Shown here piece by piece: positions 1-12,631 of a stretch of DNA of 23,101 nt. Numbering within the stretch: position 1 is the first letter of the stretch; each line of letters starts with the position of its first letter. The stretch is from positions 1-23,101 of the IMG/VR virus record IMGVR_UViG_3300042306_001316, one strand, 5' to 3'. Origin of the DNA: a virus. Under the pieces are notes generated by a model. The model was not told where the DNA came from and did no database searches. It saw only the letters and a program-made list of their open reading frames with translations. The translations under genes and the position numbers were made by a program.

Positions 1-25
1 GGAGAGTTACTTGAATTGTTTTCAT
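1..25 (-). CDS. Start of a possible next gene (partial)
   Basis: An ATG on the minus strand at 25-23 opens a frame that stays open to the window edge and begins MKTIQVTL. It lies 13 nt after the stop of the small membrane protein gene at 39-215, in the same orientation and at spacing typical of this genome. Only eight codons are visible, so neither function nor reality can be judged. Confidence 0.35.
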
Positions 26-38
26 TACATGCTGAGTA

Positions 39-215
39 TTATAGGATAGGGTAGAAACAGTTAATAATATATAGAGCAATTAATACCTGTAAACCTCCCC
101 AAAACCATCCATTCTCTTTTATGTTGAAGATTACCCCTAGTACTATAATAGGAAAAAAGAACACCATAAGAAGAATACCCCAGATTGTTAAATTACCTCT
201 TAATCTATCAGTCAT
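39..215 (-). CDS. Small two-TM membrane protein
   Basis: A 58-residue hypothetical protein, MTDRLRGNL at its N-terminus, with two hydrophobic stretches (about residues 9-29 and 37-57) separated by a short loop KENGWFWGG, so probably a two-pass inner membrane protein. The frame is open upstream to 272, but that extension is a translation of the promoter at 237-273 (it reads RIFRY, as does the same artefact at 3317), so the start at 215 is chosen. The 26-nt gap between the -7 box and this ATG matches other genes here. The upstream bases are A-rich with no Shine-Dalgarno sequence. No family recognised. Confidence 0.7.
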   Translation of the reverse strand: MTDRLRGNLTIWGILLMVFFFPIIVLGVIFNIKENGWFWGGLQVLIALYIINCFYPIL

Positions 216-236
216 AATTTCTATTGTTTTAATTAT

Positions 237-273
237 ATACCTAAATATACGAATAAATACTACGGTAGGCAAC
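237..273 (-). promoter_or_regulatory. Promoter P1 (TTG-N20-TATATTTAGGTAT)
   Basis: On the minus strand TTG (272-270) is followed by exactly 20 nt and TATATTTA (249-242), then GGTAT. This is the shared promoter of the window and resembles the Bacteroidota -33/-7 consensus. It sits 26 nt before the ATG at 215, after a 745-bp gene-free stretch. Confidence 0.75.
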
Positions 274-329
274 TTTTTTTTAATATTTTTTTAACCCCTT
301 CTCCCCTGGAGGGGAAACAGCAAAAAGGA

Positions 330-488
330 CAGGTACAGGGAAAGGGTTTTTGAAACGGGTCTCAATCGGGTCACTAGACGGGTTGCTAGCCCGGGTTACC
401 AAACGGGTCTCTAATGGGTTCCGGAACAGGTTTCTAGGAGGGTCTCTATATATAAAACGGGTCTATAGAACGGGTATCTAGCATAGGT
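330..488 (+). repeat. CGGGT repeat array 1, about 12-bp period
   Basis: Thirteen degenerate units begin at 330, 343, 356, 367, 379, 392, 404, 415, 427, 439, 458, 471 and 484. Each starts with CGGGT or a one- to two-base variant (AGGGT, TGGGT, CAGGT, TAGGT). Spacing is 11-13 bp except one 19-bp gap (439 to 458). The best units follow CGGGTnTCTAnA. The mixed 11/12/13 spacing rules out a coding tandem repeat. The period is too short for CRISPR. It resembles iterons or partition-site repeats in form only. Confidence 0.8.
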
Positions 489-671
489 TTTCTTTATTAT
501 AGAAAAAAACTATTAAGGAGACACACACCCCTCATTTTTCCTATCCTTATTCTACCATCCCTATCTCCTTTTTTTACACATCATATATACTATACAGTAC
601 CTTTTAATACTAAGTACTATATGTCTTTATACTCTTCCATTCCTTTTACTACTCTTTATGTTTAACCAAAG

Positions 672-736
672 TCCTACCTATTTCCTATGTATTTCCAGTA
701 GTTCTCCCTATGTCTCTCCTTATATCTCTCCAGCTC
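672..736 (+). repeat. TCC-phased pyrimidine repeat leading into array 2
   Basis: TCC triplets recur at 672, 683, 694, 705, 717 and 729, i.e. 11 or 12 bp apart, several inside CTCTCC or TTTCC. The rhythm continues through 741 (CGTAT) into the CGGGT units that start at 753, so this block and array 2 share one phase. On the minus strand it is a GGA-phased purine tract. No ORF covers it. Confidence 0.55.
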
Positions 737-752
737 TATACGTATGTATAAA

Positions 753-827
753 CGGGTAATAGGCCGGGACAGAAACGGGTAATTGGACGGGTATGAAATG
801 GGTATCTAGCCGGGTCTCTCAACGGGT
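753..827 (+). repeat. CGGGT repeat array 2, 11-12 bp period
   Basis: Seven units begin at 753, 765, 776, 788, 799, 811 and 823 (spacing 12, 11, 12, 11, 12, 12), each CGGGT, CGGGA or TGGGT, mostly followed by (A/T)nTCTA-like bases. Same orientation and unit as array 1, from which it is separated by 265 bp. Confidence 0.8.
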
Positions 828-960
828 TTCTATACAATATTCTCTATAGGATTGTCCACTGTCTTTATAACGTCTTCTTTATTATCCTATATAGTATTCT
901 TATCTATTATATTGCTGGAGATATTATTTCTTTCTATAGTATTTACCCCTCTACGGATAC

Positions 961-1086
961 TTATACCTTTTTCTTTTTAGATTGTTTTCTTTTAGGTCTT
1001 GGAGGCATAGGGATTCTTCTTCCTCCTCTCAATCCAATACTACCTGTCATTCCTAATACAAGTAATAGCCAAATAAAGAACATCAT
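961..1086 (-). CDS. Tiny TM protein with lysine/arginine-rich tail (41 aa)
   Basis: A 41-residue protein starting MMFFIWLLLVLG: one hydrophobic segment (residues 2-12, perhaps to 19), then a GRR/PMPPRP stretch and a very basic C-terminus (KRKQSKKKKV). The ATG at 1086-1084 overlaps the TGA of the upstream gene as ATGA, which implies translational coupling and supports the call. A short N-terminal membrane anchor with a cationic tail is seen in some phage membrane peptides, but no family is recognised. It is the last gene before the repeat-bearing gene-free stretch. Confidence 0.6.
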   Translation of the reverse strand: MMFFIWLLLVLGMTGSIGLRGGRRIPMPPRPKRKQSKKKKV

Positions 1087-1277
1087 ATCTCTTCCAATGT
1101 TAGTATTGATATACAATGTGGAAAGTTATCATAGTCTCTTAGGATGATTAACCCTTGTTCCTTTACTACCTGGACAGCTATTCCTTCTATAATCCTTCCT
1201 ACACCCTTTCTAGAGTTGAAAGCTATTTTACTTCCTCTATACTTTTTATGATATAATACTACGTCTTCAATTTTCAT
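1083..1277 (-). CDS. Hypothetical protein, 64 aa
   Basis: A 64-residue protein beginning MKIEDVVLYHKKYRG with alternating hydrophobic residues that suggest a small beta-rich fold (for example GVGRIIEGIAVQVV then GLIILRDYD). No signal peptide, TM segment or known motif. It overlaps the preceding 34-aa frame by 11 nt and the following 41-aa gene by ATGA, so it is part of a coupled run of tiny genes downstream of promoter P2. Function unknown. Confidence 0.65.
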   Translation of the reverse strand: MKIEDVVLYHKKYRGSKIAFNSRKGVGRIIEGIAVQVVKEQGLIILRDYDNFPHCISILTLEEI

Positions 1278-1440: not shown

Positions 1441-1510
1441 CTGGAAGGTTGGGAGAATTTGCGCGTGACACCTTCGGTGAGGAGGTTTTGGCGCCCCCTC
1501 CTCCCCTAAG
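1441..1510. other. GC-rich, inverted-repeat-rich island
   Basis: This 70-bp segment is far richer in G and C than its surroundings. It can fold as nested stems: GGGAG (1451-1455) with CTCCC (1501-1505), GCGC (1461-1464) with GCGC (1491-1494), and CACC-TTC-GGTG near 1469-1479; an alternative is GAGGAGG (1479-1485) with CCTCCTC (1497-1503). No T-run follows on either strand, so it is not a simple terminator. It lies between the 34-aa and 32-aa genes. Confidence 0.4.
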
Positions 1511-1633: not shown

Positions 1634-1670
1634 ATACCTAAATATACGAAATTAATCCTTAGGTTCCAAA
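1634..1670 (-). promoter_or_regulatory. Promoter P2 (TTTG-N20-TATATTTAGGTAT)
   Basis: Minus-strand TTTG at 1670-1667, 20 nt, TATATTTA at 1646-1639, then GGTAT. Its -33 box lies inside the 3' end of the upstream coding sequence (stop at 1654-1652). It serves the tiny-gene run 1612-961. Confidence 0.75.
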
Positions 1671-2260
1671 CTATTTGGGAAATAAAGTAGTGTAGGATTC
1701 TTCTTTTGAATATCTATCTCTGGATGTTTTTTACTAAATTCCATTATATCAAATCTCTTAGTAATTAAATGTACTCCGTTCTTTGTTGGAATATGTGTAA
1801 TAATTTTAGCTCCTTCTGGTTTACAAGAATGAATAGTTCTAGCTACATCATACAGCACCTCAGTATCTTTAGTATCAATATCAACAATCCATCTCTTCTC
1901 TTGAGTCTTTATTTGTCCTACAACAGAATCAAATAAACCTTTTTGATTGTTACTTCCGTTTTGAATACGTTGTGCTAGTGCAGACATCATACTCAGAGAT
2001 ACATCAAAGTGATTTTGTTTCTGTACATGAATATAAGCTCTTGCTTTAAACATCTCACATAGTTGGATTATTTCATCATAGCGTCTCTCTAAATGATCAA
2101 TACTCTCTATGCAGTAAGTCTTAATTGTTCTTACTGATTGATGATTATCTCTCTCTCCTTCCGGTTGATCTTTCTTACGCTTGAATACATACAGCATATA
2201 GAAGTCTCCTTTGTTCTCGTAATTAAGCAATGGCTTAATCAATTCTATATTATTTATCAT
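1652..2260 (-). CDS. Phage protein with primase-like motifs (202 aa)
   Basis: A 202-residue soluble protein, N-terminus MINNIELIKPLLNYE. Recognisable points are RAYIHVQ (74-80), VDID (126-129), PTKNGVH (158-164) and NPTLLYFP (188-195). The order hhhDhD then s-x-G-x-H resembles motifs I and II of archaeo-eukaryotic-type primases and I recall similar proteins in other Bacteroidota phages, but the third carboxylate motif is not obvious, so this is only a suggestion. The start at 2260 lies 1 nt after the upstream stop; the longer frame to 2320 would overlap the upstream gene by 59 nt and is rejected. Translation is probably coupled to the upstream gene from P3. Confidence 0.75.
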   Translation of the reverse strand: MINNIELIKPLLNYENKGDFYMLYVFKRKKDQPEGERDNHQSVRTIKTYCIESIDHLERRYDEIIQLCEMFKARAYIHVQKQNHFDVSLSMMSALAQRIQNGSNNQKGLFDSVVGQIKTQEKRWIVDIDTKDTEVLYDVARTIHSCKPEGAKIITHIPTKNGVHLITKRFDIMEFSKKHPEIDIQKKNPTLLYFPNSLEPKD

Positions 2261-2261
2261 C

Positions 2262-3263
2262 TTATTTCTTTTTAAATTGTTTAAACCATTCTTCGTTTTC
2301 TTCCATATCATCTTTATCAATATATTGATAAATAAAAGATTCTAAATAAGAAGTATGATGATTTAAAATTTCTAAAACCTCTTCTTCACTATACATTTTC
2401 TTGTCTTGTTCTTGTTGCCATTTTATAGCCATATCCCAACCGTTTCCAAAATCTACTGCTATGCTATTTTTATCAAAATCAGATAGTTTTAAATGATTAT
2501 AACCACACAACCAATTATTAACAGCATTATTCTTGGCAGCTTCTTCAAGTGTTTCTTGTTTATTTACTCCTATTAATGATGTCAAATTACCTTTAGGTAT
2601 ACCTAACTCATCTTTATTAATAGTGTTTGTAAGTTTAGGTTTTTCTTCTGGAGGAAAACCACATTTCCTACAACTACCTGTAAAGCAATTTGGATCAAAA
2701 CTCATACAAGTACATCTCATATTAGCAAGTGTAGGTTCTTCATCCTCTTCTTCATAGCAACGTGTACATTCAGAATTTGTGCAAACATAAATACTATTAT
2801 CAGGTAACAAATACATATAGCCACCACACATATTACATTCAACTTCATCATCCATAGAATGTAATTCTTCTTTTGGAATGATGATTATTGGATTATGATT
2901 ACCATCATTCCAAATTTCTAATCCAACTCTAATAAACTCACAACTTGGATTCTTAACAAACCATTCAAGAAACTCATCATCAATAGCTTGTACACCATCT
3001 TTGATTAAGTCTGGGTCTGTTGTTAGGATGATTTTAAACCTGTGGATTAAACTTGGATAAGCTTCTCTTTTTTCAAAGTATCTTTTTACTTTTAATTTAT
3101 TTTCATCAAAATACCAATCCCCATCTTTAATTTCTTCATCAGAAGTGATGTAGATGTCTATTCTTGGAAATAGAGTTGTTGGAATTGGATGTAATCCGAC
3201 AACATCGTCATTTTTATATAACCTACTTGGTCTATCTGTTGGTAATATGTGTATGTTTTTCAT
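2262..3263 (-). CDS. Conserved Bacteroidota-phage protein with inserted Cys clusters
   Basis: A 333-residue protein. The N-terminus (MKNIHILPTDRPSR), the central block around TTDPDLIKDG/DDEFLEWFVKNPSCE (81-109) and the C-terminus (SEEEVL then WFKQFKKK) match a modular protein family I recognise from flavobacterial phages; its function is unknown. Between the conserved blocks lie two cysteine clusters: C143, C146, C161, C166, C169 and C184, C186, C193, C198, C201, the first resembling a zinc ribbon. The start at 3263 has the AAAGGTTATG leader and promoter P3 23 nt upstream; the longer frame to 3317 merely translates the promoter. First gene of the P3 unit. Confidence 0.8.
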   Translation of the reverse strand: MKNIHILPTDRPSRLYKNDDVVGLHPIPTTLFPRIDIYITSDEEIKDGDWYFDENKLKVKRYFEKREAYPSLIHRFKIILTTDPDLIKDGVQAIDDEFLEWFVKNPSCEFIRVGLEIWNDGNHNPIIIIPKEELHSMDDEVECNMCGGYMYLLPDNSIYVCTNSECTRCYEEEDEEPTLANMRCTCMSFDPNCFTGSCRKCGFPPEEKPKLTNTINKDELGIPKGNLTSLIGVNKQETLEEAAKNNAVNNWLCGYNHLKLSDFDKNSIAVDFGNGWDMAIKWQQEQDKKMYSEEEVLEILNHHTSYLESFIYQYIDKDDMEENEEWFKQFKKK

Positions 3264-3281
3264 AACCTTTGTCTTTAAATT

Positions 3282-3318
3282 ATACCTAAATATACGAAAA
3301 AAGGTTTGAATAAACAAA
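3282..3318 (-). promoter_or_regulatory. Promoter P3, overlapping a terminator
   Basis: Minus-strand TTTG (3318-3315), 20 nt, TATATTTA (3294-3287), GGTAT. The TTTG is the end of the 5' arm of the terminator hairpin at 3299-3324 and the terminator T-run falls in the 20-nt spacer. It serves genes 3263 and 2260. Confidence 0.75.
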
Positions 3319-3324
3319 CCTTTT
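3297..3324 (-). terminator. Intrinsic terminator after the CCA gene
   Basis: On the minus strand AAAAGGTTTG (3324-3315) pairs with CAAACCTTTT (3308-3299) across a 6-nt loop and runs into a T-tract (to 3297). It lies 5 nt past the stop of the CCA-adding enzyme gene. The 10-bp stem is perfect. Confidence 0.8.
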
Positions 3325-3329
3325 CTTAC

Positions 3330-4064
3330 TTATTTTTCAAATGTTGGCTTCAGCCACATATCTTTTCCGAATACAACCTCCATAAATCTAGGCTCTATTT
3401 TATCTATTTCATTAAATAGTCTTAGAGTCTTTACAGTATCAGCTTGCATCATCTTAATAACTTCTTCTCTTATCCTCTCTCCACTTACCACTTCCTCTAG
3501 TTTATTAATTAGAGTTGGAAAAAATATAGCTGACCATACTTTTGGAGCTATTACAAATCCTTTAGTAATAGAGAATCTAAGTGCTCTTAACATTCTTAAT
3601 GGATCATCTAGAAATGTTTGAGCTGGATCTAATGGTGTTAATAGCATTCTATTCTCCAAAGCCCACATTCCGTCAAATAAATCGATAAGATTTCCATCCT
3701 CATCTTCAGCCATAGCATTGACTGTAAAGTCTCTACGAACCAAATCATCCTCCAATGTTCCTAATTCTAGTATTGGACGTCTTGTTCCTTCTACATATCC
3801 TACTTCTTTTCTTGCCATTACAAAGTCAGCATCTAATTTAGCAAACTTATGATCACTTGGAAATTTAGCTCTGATAGTAAACATCTCTGGAACTGAAAGG
3901 AATATTGTAAATCCTTCATCAATCATCCATTGTTCCATCTCTTTGAATCCTTCTTCAACTGTTTTGTTTAGATCATCTAATACAAATGTGAAGTCGATAT
4001 CTTTTGTTTTTACTCCTAGGAGTCCATCTCTGACACATCCTCCTACTTTAAATATTTTTGGCAT
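3330..4064 (-). CDS. CCA-adding enzyme / poly(A) polymerase head (class II)
   Basis: A 244-residue nucleotidyltransferase of the class II tRNA CCA-adding/poly(A) polymerase family, which adds or repairs the 3' CCA of tRNA. Seen: GGCVRDGLLG (8-17) with DID (22-24), the catalytic carboxylates; a likely third carboxylate at LDAD (77-80); RRDFTVNAMA (110-119); and LDDPLRMLRALRF (152-164), the ribose/base-recognition region. The protein ends after the head, neck and a short helical part, whereas cellular enzymes are usually about 400 or more residues, so the tRNA-binding body/tail is largely absent. It follows the 2-TM gene by 6 nt with the AAAGGTTATG context and is closed by a terminator. It may repair host or phage tRNA ends; specificity (CCA versus A-addition) cannot be read here. 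Confidence 0.9.
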   Translation of the reverse strand: MPKIFKVGGCVRDGLLGVKTKDIDFTFVLDDLNKTVEEGFKEMEQWMIDEGFTIFLSVPEMFTIRAKFPSDHKFAKLDADFVMARKEVGYVEGTRRPILELGTLEDDLVRRDFTVNAMAEDEDGNLIDLFDGMWALENRMLLTPLDPAQTFLDDPLRMLRALRFSITKGFVIAPKVWSAIFFPTLINKLEEVVSGERIREEVIKMMQADTVKTLRLFNEIDKIEPRFMEVVFGKDMWLKPTFEK

Positions 4065-4070
4065 AACCTT

Positions 4071-4301
4071 TTATTTTTCTTTTAATTTTAATAATATATC
4101 TAATCCTTTTCCTAAGTAAATTAAAATAAGACCTATTGGAGGAGTCATTATAATGTTAATTATAAAAAAATCTGGGAATTCAAATATAAAGTGTTTATTA
4201 ATTAAGAAGTAAATTAAATCTAAAGTACTTAATGTTACTCCTATTACTGATGTAAGCAGGAACCAAACTACTACTGCTATTGTTAATATTCTCTCTATCA
4301 T
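4071..4301 (-). CDS. Small two-TM membrane protein, 76 aa
   Basis: MIERILTIAVVVWFLL starts the first hydrophobic segment (about 5-33); a second lies at about 45-67 (FFIINIIMTPPIGLILIYLG), followed by a basic tail LLKLKEK. Probably a two-pass inner membrane protein. It lies between an unknown gene and the CCA enzyme, with 5- and 6-nt gaps, so is co-transcribed from P4. No family recognised. Confidence 0.7.
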   Translation of the reverse strand: MIERILTIAVVVWFLLTSVIGVTLSTLDLIYFLINKHFIFEFPDFFIINIIMTPPIGLILIYLGKGLDILLKLKEK

Positions 4302-4306
4302 AATAC

Positions 4307-4690
4307 CTATTTTAATGTTTCTCTTAATTTAACTAATATTTTCTTCAAGTGTCTTGTATTGTCATAGTTGTTTATAAAGCTACCTGAGATTTCACTTGCT
4401 GTAAATAATGTCTTTGTAATATAGCCTTCAAAGAATCTAGAACGACATTCTTCTAATATCTCAGGACATTTACTCTCACTTGTCATCAATCCACATACCC
4501 AAAAGCCATCTCTCTTCTCCAATAGAATGTATGGATGATTAAATATTGTATGCATGAAAACATCTCCTACTTTATGAAATTTAGGCTTTCTAGTAGCTGA
4601 TGATCCTGGTAAGCAACCTATCCATGACATTAATTGCTGATGGTTGTATTTACCTTCCTTTACTTTCTCTATTAATTGAAACTTATCCAT
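4307..4690 (-). CDS. Hypothetical soluble protein, 127 aa
   Basis: A 127-residue protein beginning MDKFQLIEKVKEG, with a core KVGDVFMHTIFNHPYILLEKRDGFWVCG (about 41-67) that looks like a small beta-barrel and a basic helical C-terminus. The first gene of the P4 unit: promoter 25 nt upstream and the AAAGGTTATG leader set the start. No family recognised with confidence. Confidence 0.75.
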   Translation of the reverse strand: MDKFQLIEKVKEGKYNHQQLMSWIGCLPGSSATRKPKFHKVGDVFMHTIFNHPYILLEKRDGFWVCGLMTSESKCPEILEECRSRFFEGYITKTLFTASEISGSFINNYDNTRHLKKILVKLRETLK

Positions 4691-4710
4691 AACCTTTATT
4701 TTTAATTTCT

Positions 4711-4747
4711 ATACCTAAATATACGAAAAAAGAGCTGCGCTAGCAAC
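4711..4747 (-). promoter_or_regulatory. Promoter P4, overlapping a terminator
   Basis: Minus-strand TTG (4746-4744), 20 nt, TATATTTA (4723-4716), GGTAT. The TTG lies in the 5' arm of the terminator hairpin at 4728-4753. Drives 4690, 4301 and 4064. Confidence 0.75.
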
Positions 4748-4753
4748 TCTTTT
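4726..4753 (-). terminator. Intrinsic terminator after the SPFH gene
   Basis: On the minus strand AAAAGAGTTGC (4753-4743) pairs with GCAGCTCTTTT (4738-4728), one G-T wobble, 4-nt loop, followed by T residues. It is 24 nt past the SPFH stop. Confidence 0.8.
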
Positions 4754-4777
4754 ATCAATTATTTTTAAAATATTTTA

Positions 4778-5617
4778 CTATTTTAATCCGTATAATACAC
4801 TAGTACCTGATCCTAATTGTGTTGTTGGTACATTACCTTTCCACTTCTCAATCCATTGCTGTTGTATTAACATTGGAGTTAATGTTTGTTGTCTCAATCT
4901 ATTTGATTCAGCTTCAGCTCTTGCATTCGCTAGTAAGGCTTCGGCATTACCATTTGCTGTTGCTACTTTAATTTTAGCTTCAGCCTCTGCTTGCTTAACT
5001 TTATTCTCTGCCATTAAAGCTGACTGTACTGCATTGTTCTTAGCATTAATAGCTTTCTTAAATGAATCTGGATAGATTAAATTTGATGTGAATTGATTTA
5101 GTATGAATCCTTCTTTCTGTAATTGTGATACTAATATTCTTCTTACTTCAACCTCAAATATTTCTCTATTTGAAATCAATCCATCTGCTGTATACTTATT
5201 TGCTGCTAATCTAAAAGCATCGTACACGGCCGTTTTTAAGAATCCTTCTTCAATTTCTGGTAAGCTTCTTCTATATTTTGCAAAGATAGCTGGTACTTTA
5301 TCTCTCTGTACTGAGTAATTCATAATAGGTGATACACTGAATTCAGATCCATCTTTACTATTTACAATGAATGAATTGTCTCCTTCTTCTGATTTCTTAT
5401 ACTCTTTATGTTGAATATAAGTTGGAAATTCATAAATCTTTGTTGACATTGGATTATAAAATACTAATCCAGTACATTCTGTAACATCGCTTACTCCTTT
5501 ACCTGACCCATATAGATTTACTTTTACACCTACATGCCCGGCATCAATACGTTCACATGAGAATACTCCCACTACCAATAACACTACTAATCCTAATACT
5601 ACTAAAATTCTGTTCAT
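4778..5617 (-). CDS. SPFH / prohibitin-like (Band 7) membrane protein
   Basis: A 279-residue SPFH-domain protein; the family forms large membrane-bound rings that organise membrane microdomains and regulate proteases. The N-terminus is a hydrophobic anchor (4-20) followed by the SPFH core from about residue 24 (DAGHVGVKVNLYG) through a typical YPDSFKKAINAKNNAVQ (183-199) and a long alanine/glutamate-rich coiled coil with repeated AEAEAK/ANARAEAE. The end of the anchor, VFSC (18-21), resembles a Bacteroidota lipobox, so it might be a lipoprotein instead of a simple TM protein. Prohibitin-like genes are known in some phages of cyanobacteria and Bacteroidota; their role is unclear. It is transcribed from P5, just after three small membrane-protein genes, and closed by a terminator. 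Confidence 0.88.
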   Translation of the reverse strand: MNRILVVLGLVVLLVVGVFSCERIDAGHVGVKVNLYGSGKGVSDVTECTGLVFYNPMSTKIYEFPTYIQHKEYKKSEEGDNSFIVNSKDGSEFSVSPIMNYSVQRDKVPAIFAKYRRSLPEIEEGFLKTAVYDAFRLAANKYTADGLISNREIFEVEVRRILVSQLQKEGFILNQFTSNLIYPDSFKKAINAKNNAVQSALMAENKVKQAEAEAKIKVATANGNAEALLANARAEAESNRLRQQTLTPMLIQQQWIEKWKGNVPTTQLGSGTSVLYGLK

Positions 5618-10027: not shown

Positions 10028-10434
10028 TAATCGTCGTCTTCGTCTTCTAGGTCTACATCTTCAACGTCCTCTAGATCTTCTAAGTCTTCTTCTACCTCTT
10101 CGACTTCTAATTCATCGTCTAAGGCTTTTTCAATAACAGCATCTAATGCTTTAGCATCATCTGTTACTTCATCTTCGTCATAGTTTAAGATCTCTAATGG
10201 AACATTTCTAACCCCTCTTGCAGTATTCTCCATCTCTTGAAGTCTTCTAGCTGTGTCTTGATCTAAGATATCAAGTTCAGTGACTGTATAGTCTCCTTCT
10301 CCTACTACTCTAATACGTCCTACTTTAGGCTTTACATCTGAGCAGCTAACACAGAAATCGTATCCGAATTTCTCTAATCGGAGCTTTGGCATATCATTGC
10401 CACATCTTGTACAAGGAATCATTTCTAAATTCAT
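10027..10434 (-). CDS. Zinc-ribbon protein with acidic tail (DksA/TraR-like finger)
   Basis: A 135-residue protein with one four-cysteine finger at the N-terminus (C8-x2-C11 and C28-x2-C31, within CTRCGNDMPKLRLEKFGYDFCVSC), similar to the finger of TraR/DksA-type phage proteins. A middle section carries GEGDYTVTELDILDQ, and the last ~45 residues are almost all D/E (from DDAKALDAVI onward). Such tails can mimic nucleic acid or bind basic proteins; that is inference. First gene of the P9 unit, leader 26 nt ending AACGGTTATG, and coupled to the HNH-like gene by TAATG. Confidence 0.78.
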   Translation of the reverse strand: MNLEMIPCTRCGNDMPKLRLEKFGYDFCVSCSDVKPKVGRIRVVGEGDYTVTELDILDQDTARRLQEMENTARGVRNVPLEILNYDEDEVTDDAKALDAVIEKALDDELEVEEVEEDLEDLEDVEDVDLEDEDDD

Positions 10435-10455
10435 AACCGTTTTTATTTATTAATT

Positions 10456-10492
10456 ATACCTAAATATAAGAACAAAGATTCGTTCTAGCAAC
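10456..10492 (-). promoter_or_regulatory. Promoter P9 (GTTGCT-N-TATATTTAGGTAT)
   Basis: Minus-strand TTG (10491-10489), 20 nt, TATATTTA (10468-10461), GGTAT. The TTG directly follows the TAG stop (10494-10492) of the upstream gene. Drives 10434, 10027 and 9390. Confidence 0.75.
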
Positions 10493-10827
10493 TATTTCTT
10501 AACTTCTTTTATACTTGTTATTACATTCCAGACCTGCTCTGGTGTTTCAAAGTCAACTGTAATCATATCCTTTCCATCTGAAAGATCTATCTTTCCATCC
10601 CAGTCCATAAGTGTTGGTACTTGGTAGATATAGTATTGTATTAAAGCAAATTGTTCTTTGCTGAAGTGTATCTTAAATAGGTTTTCTATAATTTGTAAGA
10701 ACTTCTCCTCATAGATTGACATATCTAATCCAAGTTCTTCTTCCATGAAGTCTCTCCTGTCTTCTATTTCTCTTAAAAGGATAATATTTTCTATGAAGAG
10801 CTTCTTTTCGATTACATCTCTTGCCAT
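10492..10827 (-). CDS. Hypothetical helical protein, 111 aa
   Basis: Starting at MARDVIEKKLF, a helical protein with FALIQYYIYQVPTLMDWDG in its second half. The frame extends to 10902 (136 residues), but that would overlap the upstream gene by 53 nt; the ATG at 10827 is preceded by the purine-rich AAAGGAAAAGG and lies 22 nt after the upstream stop, so it is preferred. The longer form cannot be excluded. No family recognised. Confidence 0.65.
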   Translation of the reverse strand: MARDVIEKKLFIENIILLREIEDRRDFMEEELGLDMSIYEEKFLQIIENLFKIHFSKEQFALIQYYIYQVPTLMDWDGKIDLSDGKDMITVDFETPEQVWNVITSIKEVKK

Positions 10828-11446: not shown

Positions 11447-12631
11447 TTAATTTTTACATACTATCAGATCATTCTGATATTCTGTTAGAGAGTTAATAGT
11501 TATTTTAAATACATCTAATTCAAACTCTCCTACTTCTCCGCTCTCTTTTATAATCTCTGGAAGTTGTTGAATGATATTAAATGATTGTTGATCGAACTTT
11601 TTCATATCAAACTCTACTACGATATCGTTTTCTAATTTAGGATCATTATACTCTAATGTATAAATTCTTTTTGATAAATCAAACTTAGTATTTGACTGCT
11701 CTTTATCGATGTAATGTGATGTAATCACCTGCATAGTGTCATCGATATAAATCCTATCACACCAAGGCTCTAATAATTCTAAGATCTCCGAAGTACAGTG
11801 CTTAACCATAAAAGCAATATTGTATTTTGGATCAAGTATTGGATACTGAAATTCATCGTTTTTAATCCAACTTCCCCACTTTCTTAGATACTCTTTTCTA
11901 CATCTATTCATTGTTGCTTCATAGTCAGAATTAACAATTCCAACTCCCCTATTCCACCTATGTCCTCTACAGGTCATATGGTAGCAGAGTGCATCTCGAG
12001 ATTGTACTATTTTATACCCTCTTAATATCCATCGGTTAAATATGTCTGAGTCTTCGTACCCGTATGGTGTAAATTTTTGATCATGACCTCCTATTTCTAA
12101 ATGATCTTGCTTATAGAGCATCCAAGGTGCAAATATTCCCTTTGTAGTTTTCCCTTCTGATTCTATTAATTCACCAGTAACAAAGTGTTCAAAAGCATCC
12201 CATTTAAAAGTGTCTGCTTCGTCTCCAAAATCAATAGTAATCTTCTCCTTTCCGGCAGGATGTATAGGCGGTTCAATACGAGTACCGCATACCACAGTTC
12301 CTGGTTTTAAGTGCTTTAACATATTATCAAAATACTTAGGACCTATTATCATATCAGAATGTAGTATTGAAACTACTTCTGTTGTGGACATTCTCATTCC
12401 CTCATCATACCAGTATGTATGCCCTCTTCTTTCGGGAGAGATTACGACTGTAAGATTACTTGCTTTTAAAGTCTTTAAGTATTCGGCTGTACCGTCTTGA
12501 GATGCGTCGTCGATTATTATAATCTCAACATCACCTCCATGCTTTATTAAGCTGTTGTATGTATTCTTTAGGTGGGAAAGAGTATTATAACTTGGTATTA
12601 TTACAGTATGTTTAGTATTCTGGTTTTCCAT
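11447..12631 (-). CDS. GT2-family glycosyltransferase with C-terminal extension
   Basis: A 394-residue protein. The N-terminal ~240 residues form a GT-A domain of family 2: VIIPSYN (10-16), IIIIDDASQDGTAEYL (37-52), the DXD-like metal site HSDM (91-94), and a GYEDSDIFNRWILRGYKI block (about 195-212) that holds the likely catalytic ED. The last ~140 residues are an extra domain of unknown role. No membrane segment, so likely cytoplasmic, using a nucleotide sugar. The start overlaps the preceding GT gene by 31 nt. Donor and acceptor cannot be inferred. Confidence 0.88.
   Translation of the reverse strand: MENQNTKHTVIIPSYNTLSHLKNTYNSLIKHGGDVEIIIIDDASQDGTAEYLKTLKASNLTVVISPERRGHTYWYDEGMRMSTTEVVSILHSDMIIGPKYFDNMLKHLKPGTVVCGTRIEPPIHPAGKEKITIDFGDEADTFKWDAFEHFVTGELIESEGKTTKGIFAPWMLYKQDHLEIGGHDQKFTPYGYEDSDIFNRWILRGYKIVQSRDALCYHMTCRGHRWNRGVGIVNSDYEATMNRCRKEYLRKWGSWIKNDEFQYPILDPKYNIAFMVKHCTSEILELLEPWCDRIYIDDTMQVITSHYIDKEQSNTKFDLSKRIYTLEYNDPKLENDIVVEFDMKKFDQQSFNIIQQLPEIIKESGEVGEFELDVFKITINSLTEYQNDLIVCKN

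Follow-up and report, generated by a model that had tools for sequence, protein, structure and literature searches.

What function could a long array of CGGGT-like pentamers serve in a non-coding stretch of a phage genome? The array (array A) occupies positions 330 to 488 of the 23,101-bp stretch of DNA that we analyzed, referred to here as the window, in which nearly all genes lie on the minus strand. It consists of 12 to 13 CGGGT-like units on the plus strand, all in the same direction and separated by steps of 11 to 13 bp, with a single 19-bp step (439 to 458). This count agrees with an earlier sequence-only reading of the same DNA, which described 13 units at 11- to 13-bp spacing with one 19-bp gap. 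The units start at the following positions:

356, 367, 379, 392, 404, 458, and 471, plus strand: exact CGGGT units
330 (CAGGT), 343 (AGGGT), 415 (TGGGT), 427 (CAGGT), and 439 (AGGGT), plus strand: variant units
484, plus strand: weak last unit, TAGGT

The longest chain in array A at spacings of 10 to 14 bp comprises 10 units. Shuffled controls reached 3 units at most, whether the whole window (300 dinucleotide shuffles) or only the region 251-900 (2000 dinucleotide shuffles) was randomized. The shuffle control proposed in the sequence-only reading therefore gave nothing comparable, ruling out a chance origin of the array. That reading had also placed the array in a gene-free region and dismissed both a coding repeat and a CRISPR array, and these points hold. 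No open reading frame (ORF) of at least 60 aa in the window's ORF list covers array A, and this absence, together with the mixed 11/12/13-bp spacing, rules out a coding repeat. The array has a 5-bp core at a 12-bp pitch, whereas CRISPR repeats are ~23 to 50 bp long and are separated by unique spacers.

By blastn, the nearest relative of the window is Flavobacterium phage immuto (MW353175; 160,410 bp; Immutovirus), a cultivated phage of Flavobacterium sp. LMO8 that is T4-like in its portal (gp20) and capsid (gp23) proteins. Window positions 233-751 align with immuto 66,992-66,462 at 81% identity, and a second array aligns separately. Indeed, immuto carries both arrays in the same arrangement, with CGGGT clusters at 66,317-66,411 and 66,770-66,889 on its minus strand. 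The second array (array B) is absent from the sequence-only reading, as are the conserved spacer of ~265 bp between the arrays and the opposite-strand early promoter at 235-273. Array A is one half of a conserved, probably cis-acting DNA module that also includes array B and the spacer between them. The module is ordered as early promoter, hairpin, array A, spacer with an inverted-repeat core, and array B. Its features and neighbors in the window are as follows:

1-25, minus strand: first codons of a conserved gene for a basic peptide of 45-50 aa, cut by the window end (immuto 67229-67378)
39-215, minus strand: small early gene behind the promoter; its family differs among relatives
235-273, minus strand: early-type promoter (GTTGCC ... 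TATATTTAGGTATA) that drives the gene at 39-215 and adjoins array A; the same consensus precedes dozens of immuto early genes
274-315: T-tracts and a short C4/G4 hairpin that separate the promoter from array A; most, not all, relatives have the hairpin
330-488, plus strand: array A
489-752: conserved gene-free spacer between the arrays, from blastn to immuto and a 15-locus alignment
515-525, plus strand: conserved island AAGGAGACACA, inverted relative to 711-719
575-581, plus strand: TACACAT, invariant in the 15-locus set and containing the TNCACA half of a DnaA box
592-622: most conserved core, an imperfect inverted repeat (ATACAGTACC / AGTACTATAT)
711-719, plus strand: conserved island TGTCTCTCC
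753-835, plus strand: array B, seven direct units 11-12 bp apart with the motif and orientation of array A, conserved in relatives
1083-1277, minus strand: gene for a conserved 64-aa protein, near array B in most relatives

The ORFs annotated in immuto as genes 121 (31 aa) and 122 (40 aa), which overlap the arrays, are probably spurious. Without them, 678 bp separate the terminator hairpin of gene 120 from the promoter of gene 123, and this gap is, by inspection, the largest gene-free region of the immuto genome. The early promoter consensus of immuto is GTTGC, ~20 nt, and TATNTTTAGGTATA, and the late promoter consensus common to its late genes is TATTTATA; neither consensus occurs inside the immuto module. 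Between 60 and 76 kb of immuto, the early promoter recurs in front of nearly every single early gene (about 25 copies in 16 kb).

Beyond the module, a GC-rich, hairpin-like non-coding element is common to window 1456-1507 and immuto 42442-42493 (85% identity, in a genome of 33% GC). A gene cassette at window 1652-5617, which encodes a tRNA nucleotidyltransferase and a lipoprotein-like protein, lacks a match at the DNA level in the syntenic region of immuto; its nucleotidyltransferase matches Cellulophaga phages phi4:1 and phi17:2.

The sequence-only reading made its case depend on whether related phages carry the array, and both immuto and environmental contigs do. Searches with the array pattern and the spacer core found the module, complete or as far as the stored piece extends, in immuto and at least about 20 IMG/VR contigs (L014, L032, L086, L097, L127/L133, L128, L130-L132, L134-L144, L155, L156, and L158), a count that is a lower bound and includes some near-duplicates. 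The module is also present on a 3.3-kb contig from a lake metagenome bin (L160). All spacer-core matches carry arrays. Among the relatives, array A has about 6 to 14 units and array B has 5 to 9 (up to ~23 over the two blocks); without exception the units share one direction, against that of the flanking genes. The 15 aligned loci have a highly conserved core inverted repeat, which is replaced in L155 and was not seen in L095. Together with L015, L095 represents a more divergent version of the module that has about five units and portions of the spacer. In 8 of 15 loci the distance from the core to the start of array B is 152 to 154 bp, and most exceptions contain an inserted hairpin or a deletion. 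Each of the eight records searched for copy number, including those of 150 to 167 kb, has one module. The first genes on either side vary in family among relatives, indicating that conservation of the module does not depend on the genes directly around it.

Some loci have been rearranged. In L158 (near 10260-10700), a promoter-hairpin-array segment is duplicated, and array A is split by a gene cassette that has its own promoter and is located between the two copies of the array. Hairpin inserts (for example, ACAGAGTA..TACTCTGT, flanked by GTCGAAGA) break the spacer or the arrays in immuto (66425-66461), L137, L142 (twice), and L014, and these look like small mobile hairpins.

Outside this group, the same array is absent from Microcystis phage Mel-JY01, LR756508, Cellulophaga phi4:1_13, RM378, and T4, and among annotated phages only immuto isolates gave convincing spacer matches. 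The TAACTGA heptamer arrays of Beggiatoaceae (PMC4679880) have another motif and occur at many loci per genome, beside start codons. In our literature searches we found no account of such arrays for this phage group, and immuto is not mentioned in a 2020 paper about Flavobacterium phages from the Baltic. The double-array module appears to have no prior description.

Taken together, 149 exact units show a pattern in which AA is preferred upstream of CGGGT, followed by two A/C/T-rich positions, a preferred C, and A as the tenth base. The 218 spacings across loci comprise 62 of 11 bp, 126 of 12 bp, and 30 of 13 bp, with a mean of 11.85 bp. Neighboring 11s and 13s tend to compensate for one another (lag-1 product, -0.12 versus -0.03 in shuffles; P = 0.0012), a statistic inflated by the common ancestry of the loci, which are related and not independent. 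In the divergent members L130 and L136, the pitch is almost strictly 12 bp. The spacing mean, the compensation, and these two members favor a rigid lattice of 12 bp (or 24 bp). A near-strict pitch with compensation is as expected for a rigid oligomer on DNA, and we infer that a protein binds the CGGGT units. As a step of 12 bp does not correspond to an integral number of turns of B-DNA, the bound proteins would wind around the helix.

Which process would such a protein serve? We tentatively favor a DNA-level iteron platform, most likely an iteron-type replication origin, a reading that we hold at somewhat less than even confidence. The sequence-only reading had offered an iteron array, a nucleoprotein platform, or an origin, and the form that it described stands: as in iteron origins, same-orientation direct repeats recur at a fixed pitch in non-coding DNA, and the module is conserved and present once in each record searched. 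Origin function goes a step beyond these features. If the module is an origin, its initiator, encoded by either phage or host, would occupy the CGGGT units of both arrays cooperatively, head to tail, at the ~12-bp pitch. Binding would put a loop or strain into the spacer or into the T-rich region on the promoter side, and loading of the helicase and primase of the phage would follow. Transcription from the adjacent early promoter may aid opening or priming. Immuto encodes its own DnaB, DnaG, and SSB and two PolA genes, and an annotated initiator is absent.

An iteron origin would be expected to have a cognate initiator gene of the Rep_3/RepA type; Rep_3, the initiator family covered by the search, had no match in four records that include the complete immuto genome. 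Full relaxed DnaA boxes do not form a cluster, and only 7 of 15 loci have one such match. T-tracts are present, and no strongly AT-rich unwinding element stands out. Detrended GC-skew maxima lie 6 to 8 kb from the module in three genomes, which is weak evidence for an origin. The skew shift falls where early genes give way to structural genes, so it may be compositional and proves nothing about an origin.

The nearest published analogue is oriE of T4, which is reported to contain evenly spaced 12-nt iterons with an ill-defined role and in which an early-mode promoter is implicated (PMC3016281). Both systems belong to large T4-like myoviruses and combine 12-nt repeats with an early promoter. 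In the T4 sequence, the only array found near the oriE annotation is a 24-bp (8-codon) coding repeat inside gene 5 (L145, 3427-3558). In contrast, the module is non-coding, with two arrays, another motif, and a conserved spacer; the immuto array is intergenic and is not a homologous repeat inside gene 5 with repEA and repEB. We found no sequence relation between the module and oriE, and since the repeats found there are coding, the resemblance is one of form only. The repeats near oriE coincide with these gene 5 coding repeats, a point relevant to their very status as replication iterons. The module also resembles P1-, lambda-, and R6K-type iteron origins in having direct, same-orientation, non-coding repeats at a fixed pitch, once per replicon. 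Iterons of those origins are typically 17 to 22 bp, whereas the module has a 5-bp core at a 12-bp pitch, no linked Rep_3 gene, and no clear DnaA-box cluster.

A promoter-adjacent array with a regulatory role would look the same as one at an origin. The arrays could be a platform for transcription control, bound cooperatively by a host protein or an early protein of the phage that turns the neighboring early promoter on or off, or they could insulate transcription units from one another. The early promoter lies beside array A in nearly all relatives and points away from the arrays, and array A is always directly upstream of this opposite-strand promoter. A precedent exists in pSM19035, whose repeat arrays overlap promoters and whose bound protein also represses (PMC5016525). 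However, dozens of early genes possess this promoter but no array, relatives differ in the family of the gene that the array-side promoter drives, and a conserved spacer of ~265 bp with array B ~500 bp away exceeds what a promoter switch needs. We consider transcription control unlikely, although it is the alternative that fares best.

The sequence-only reading also likened the array to the partition sites R1 parC and tubC. A small DNA-binding protein that coats both arrays might hold or position the phage genome, making the module a centromere-like or anchoring site. The analogy holds in form: two blocks of 11- to 12-bp direct repeats lie near a promoter, as in R1 parC, where ten direct repeats flank the promoter, and in the split tubC of pBtoxis (PMC5016525). 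Similarly, each parS site of pSM19035 has 7 to 10 short direct repeats that bind one protein and overlap promoters (PMC5016525). The two blocks of the module, however, are ~265 bp apart. The repeats bound by the omega protein of pSM19035 are contiguous 7-bp heptads, as opposed to the 12-bp units here, and no ParA-type partner was found here. The analogy fails at the level of partner genes. Neither ParM-type (PF17989, ALP_N, the one ParM-type family covered by the search) nor tubulin/TubZ-FtsZ-type (PF00091) proteins were matched in immuto and three long relatives, and no ParA-type ATPase (PF13614) was matched in these four records, of which immuto is complete. Further, no conserved operon begins at the array, the family of the first gene behind the promoter varying among relatives, and the annotation of immuto is neither temperate nor plasmid-like. 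We therefore regard a centromere as improbable.

An RNA element is likewise improbable. The module would then be transcribed from the window's minus strand as part of a 3' region and might act as a structured or repeat-bearing RNA, for example as a protein sponge or as a Rho-utilization site, with a C-rich ACCCG every ~12 nt. On that strand the arrays have more C than G, the spacer is slightly more stably folded than shuffled sequence (z, -2.2), and pairing in the core hairpin is stronger; most relatives also show no strong terminator separating the upstream gene from array B. In immuto, however, the module is preceded by an intrinsic terminator and contains no promoter consensus. On neither strand do the arrays fold better than their shuffled versions, and L155 and L095 have lost the core hairpin. 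A conserved RNA structure of the spacer was rejected: a hairpin and a long-range stem are present, but covariation is no better than in shuffles or slid structures, and RNAalifold found none of the compensatory base changes expected of a structured RNA. No Rfam match was found. The balance favors a DNA element over an RNA element.

A packaging (pac-like) site or a hotspot of gene-cassette exchange is very unlikely: neighboring genes are exchanged among relatives, the cassette in L158 splits array A, and several contigs end near the module, but the immuto terminase gene is 52 kb away, the module is mid-contig in long records (G001 and immuto), and contig ends at repeats or strain variation are expected assembly breaks.

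Returning to the iteron-origin reading, two further features accompany the module. The basic peptide encoded at the left end of the window contains the motif ..KSKKSYTRKDKHKKKG.., which is reminiscent of the ribosome-rescue factor ArfA; Pfam gave only a sub-threshold match to DUF7230. On the strand opposite its gene, just outside the left end of the window, is a strongly conserved small RNA candidate (L002, about 11467-11690; immuto 67525-67310, minus strand) with an early promoter, a conserved 5' domain (GGGGCCTGGCTTTGAAAGAGAGTCGGAAGAGTAGACGGGCCGGTAC), a variable number of ~18-nt tandem hairpins, and usually a terminator. The candidate has no match in Rfam. It is found beside the module in the 12 relatives checked and in the distant L095, and it is duplicated in L135 and L151. 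Contigs L150, L152-L154, and L159, which match a 17-base small-RNA pattern, are unrelated and were discarded. In nearly every relative with long enough DNA, both the basic-peptide gene and the small RNA lie beside the module, and their putative link to the arrays is one of co-conservation only. The two-array module, the co-conserved small RNA, and the basic-peptide gene could together form a new start system of large T4-like Bacteroidota phages. In this system, an initiator specific to the phage would fill both 12-bp-pitch arrays to build one nucleoprotein structure, whose activity the nearby RNA would set, as in plasmid copy control. We consider this broader proposal improbable.

How large lytic T4-like phages choose their origins is poorly understood, and even in T4 the role of the oriE repeats is ill defined (PMC3016281). 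As the double array is discrete, non-coding, single-copy, strongly conserved, and present in immuto, which can be cultivated on its host, origin, binding, and deletion experiments are possible. If the module is not an origin, it would still be a conserved DNA platform that needs an explanation. If it is one, it would represent a 12-bp-pitch iteron class outside plasmids and would provide a handle on the initiator.
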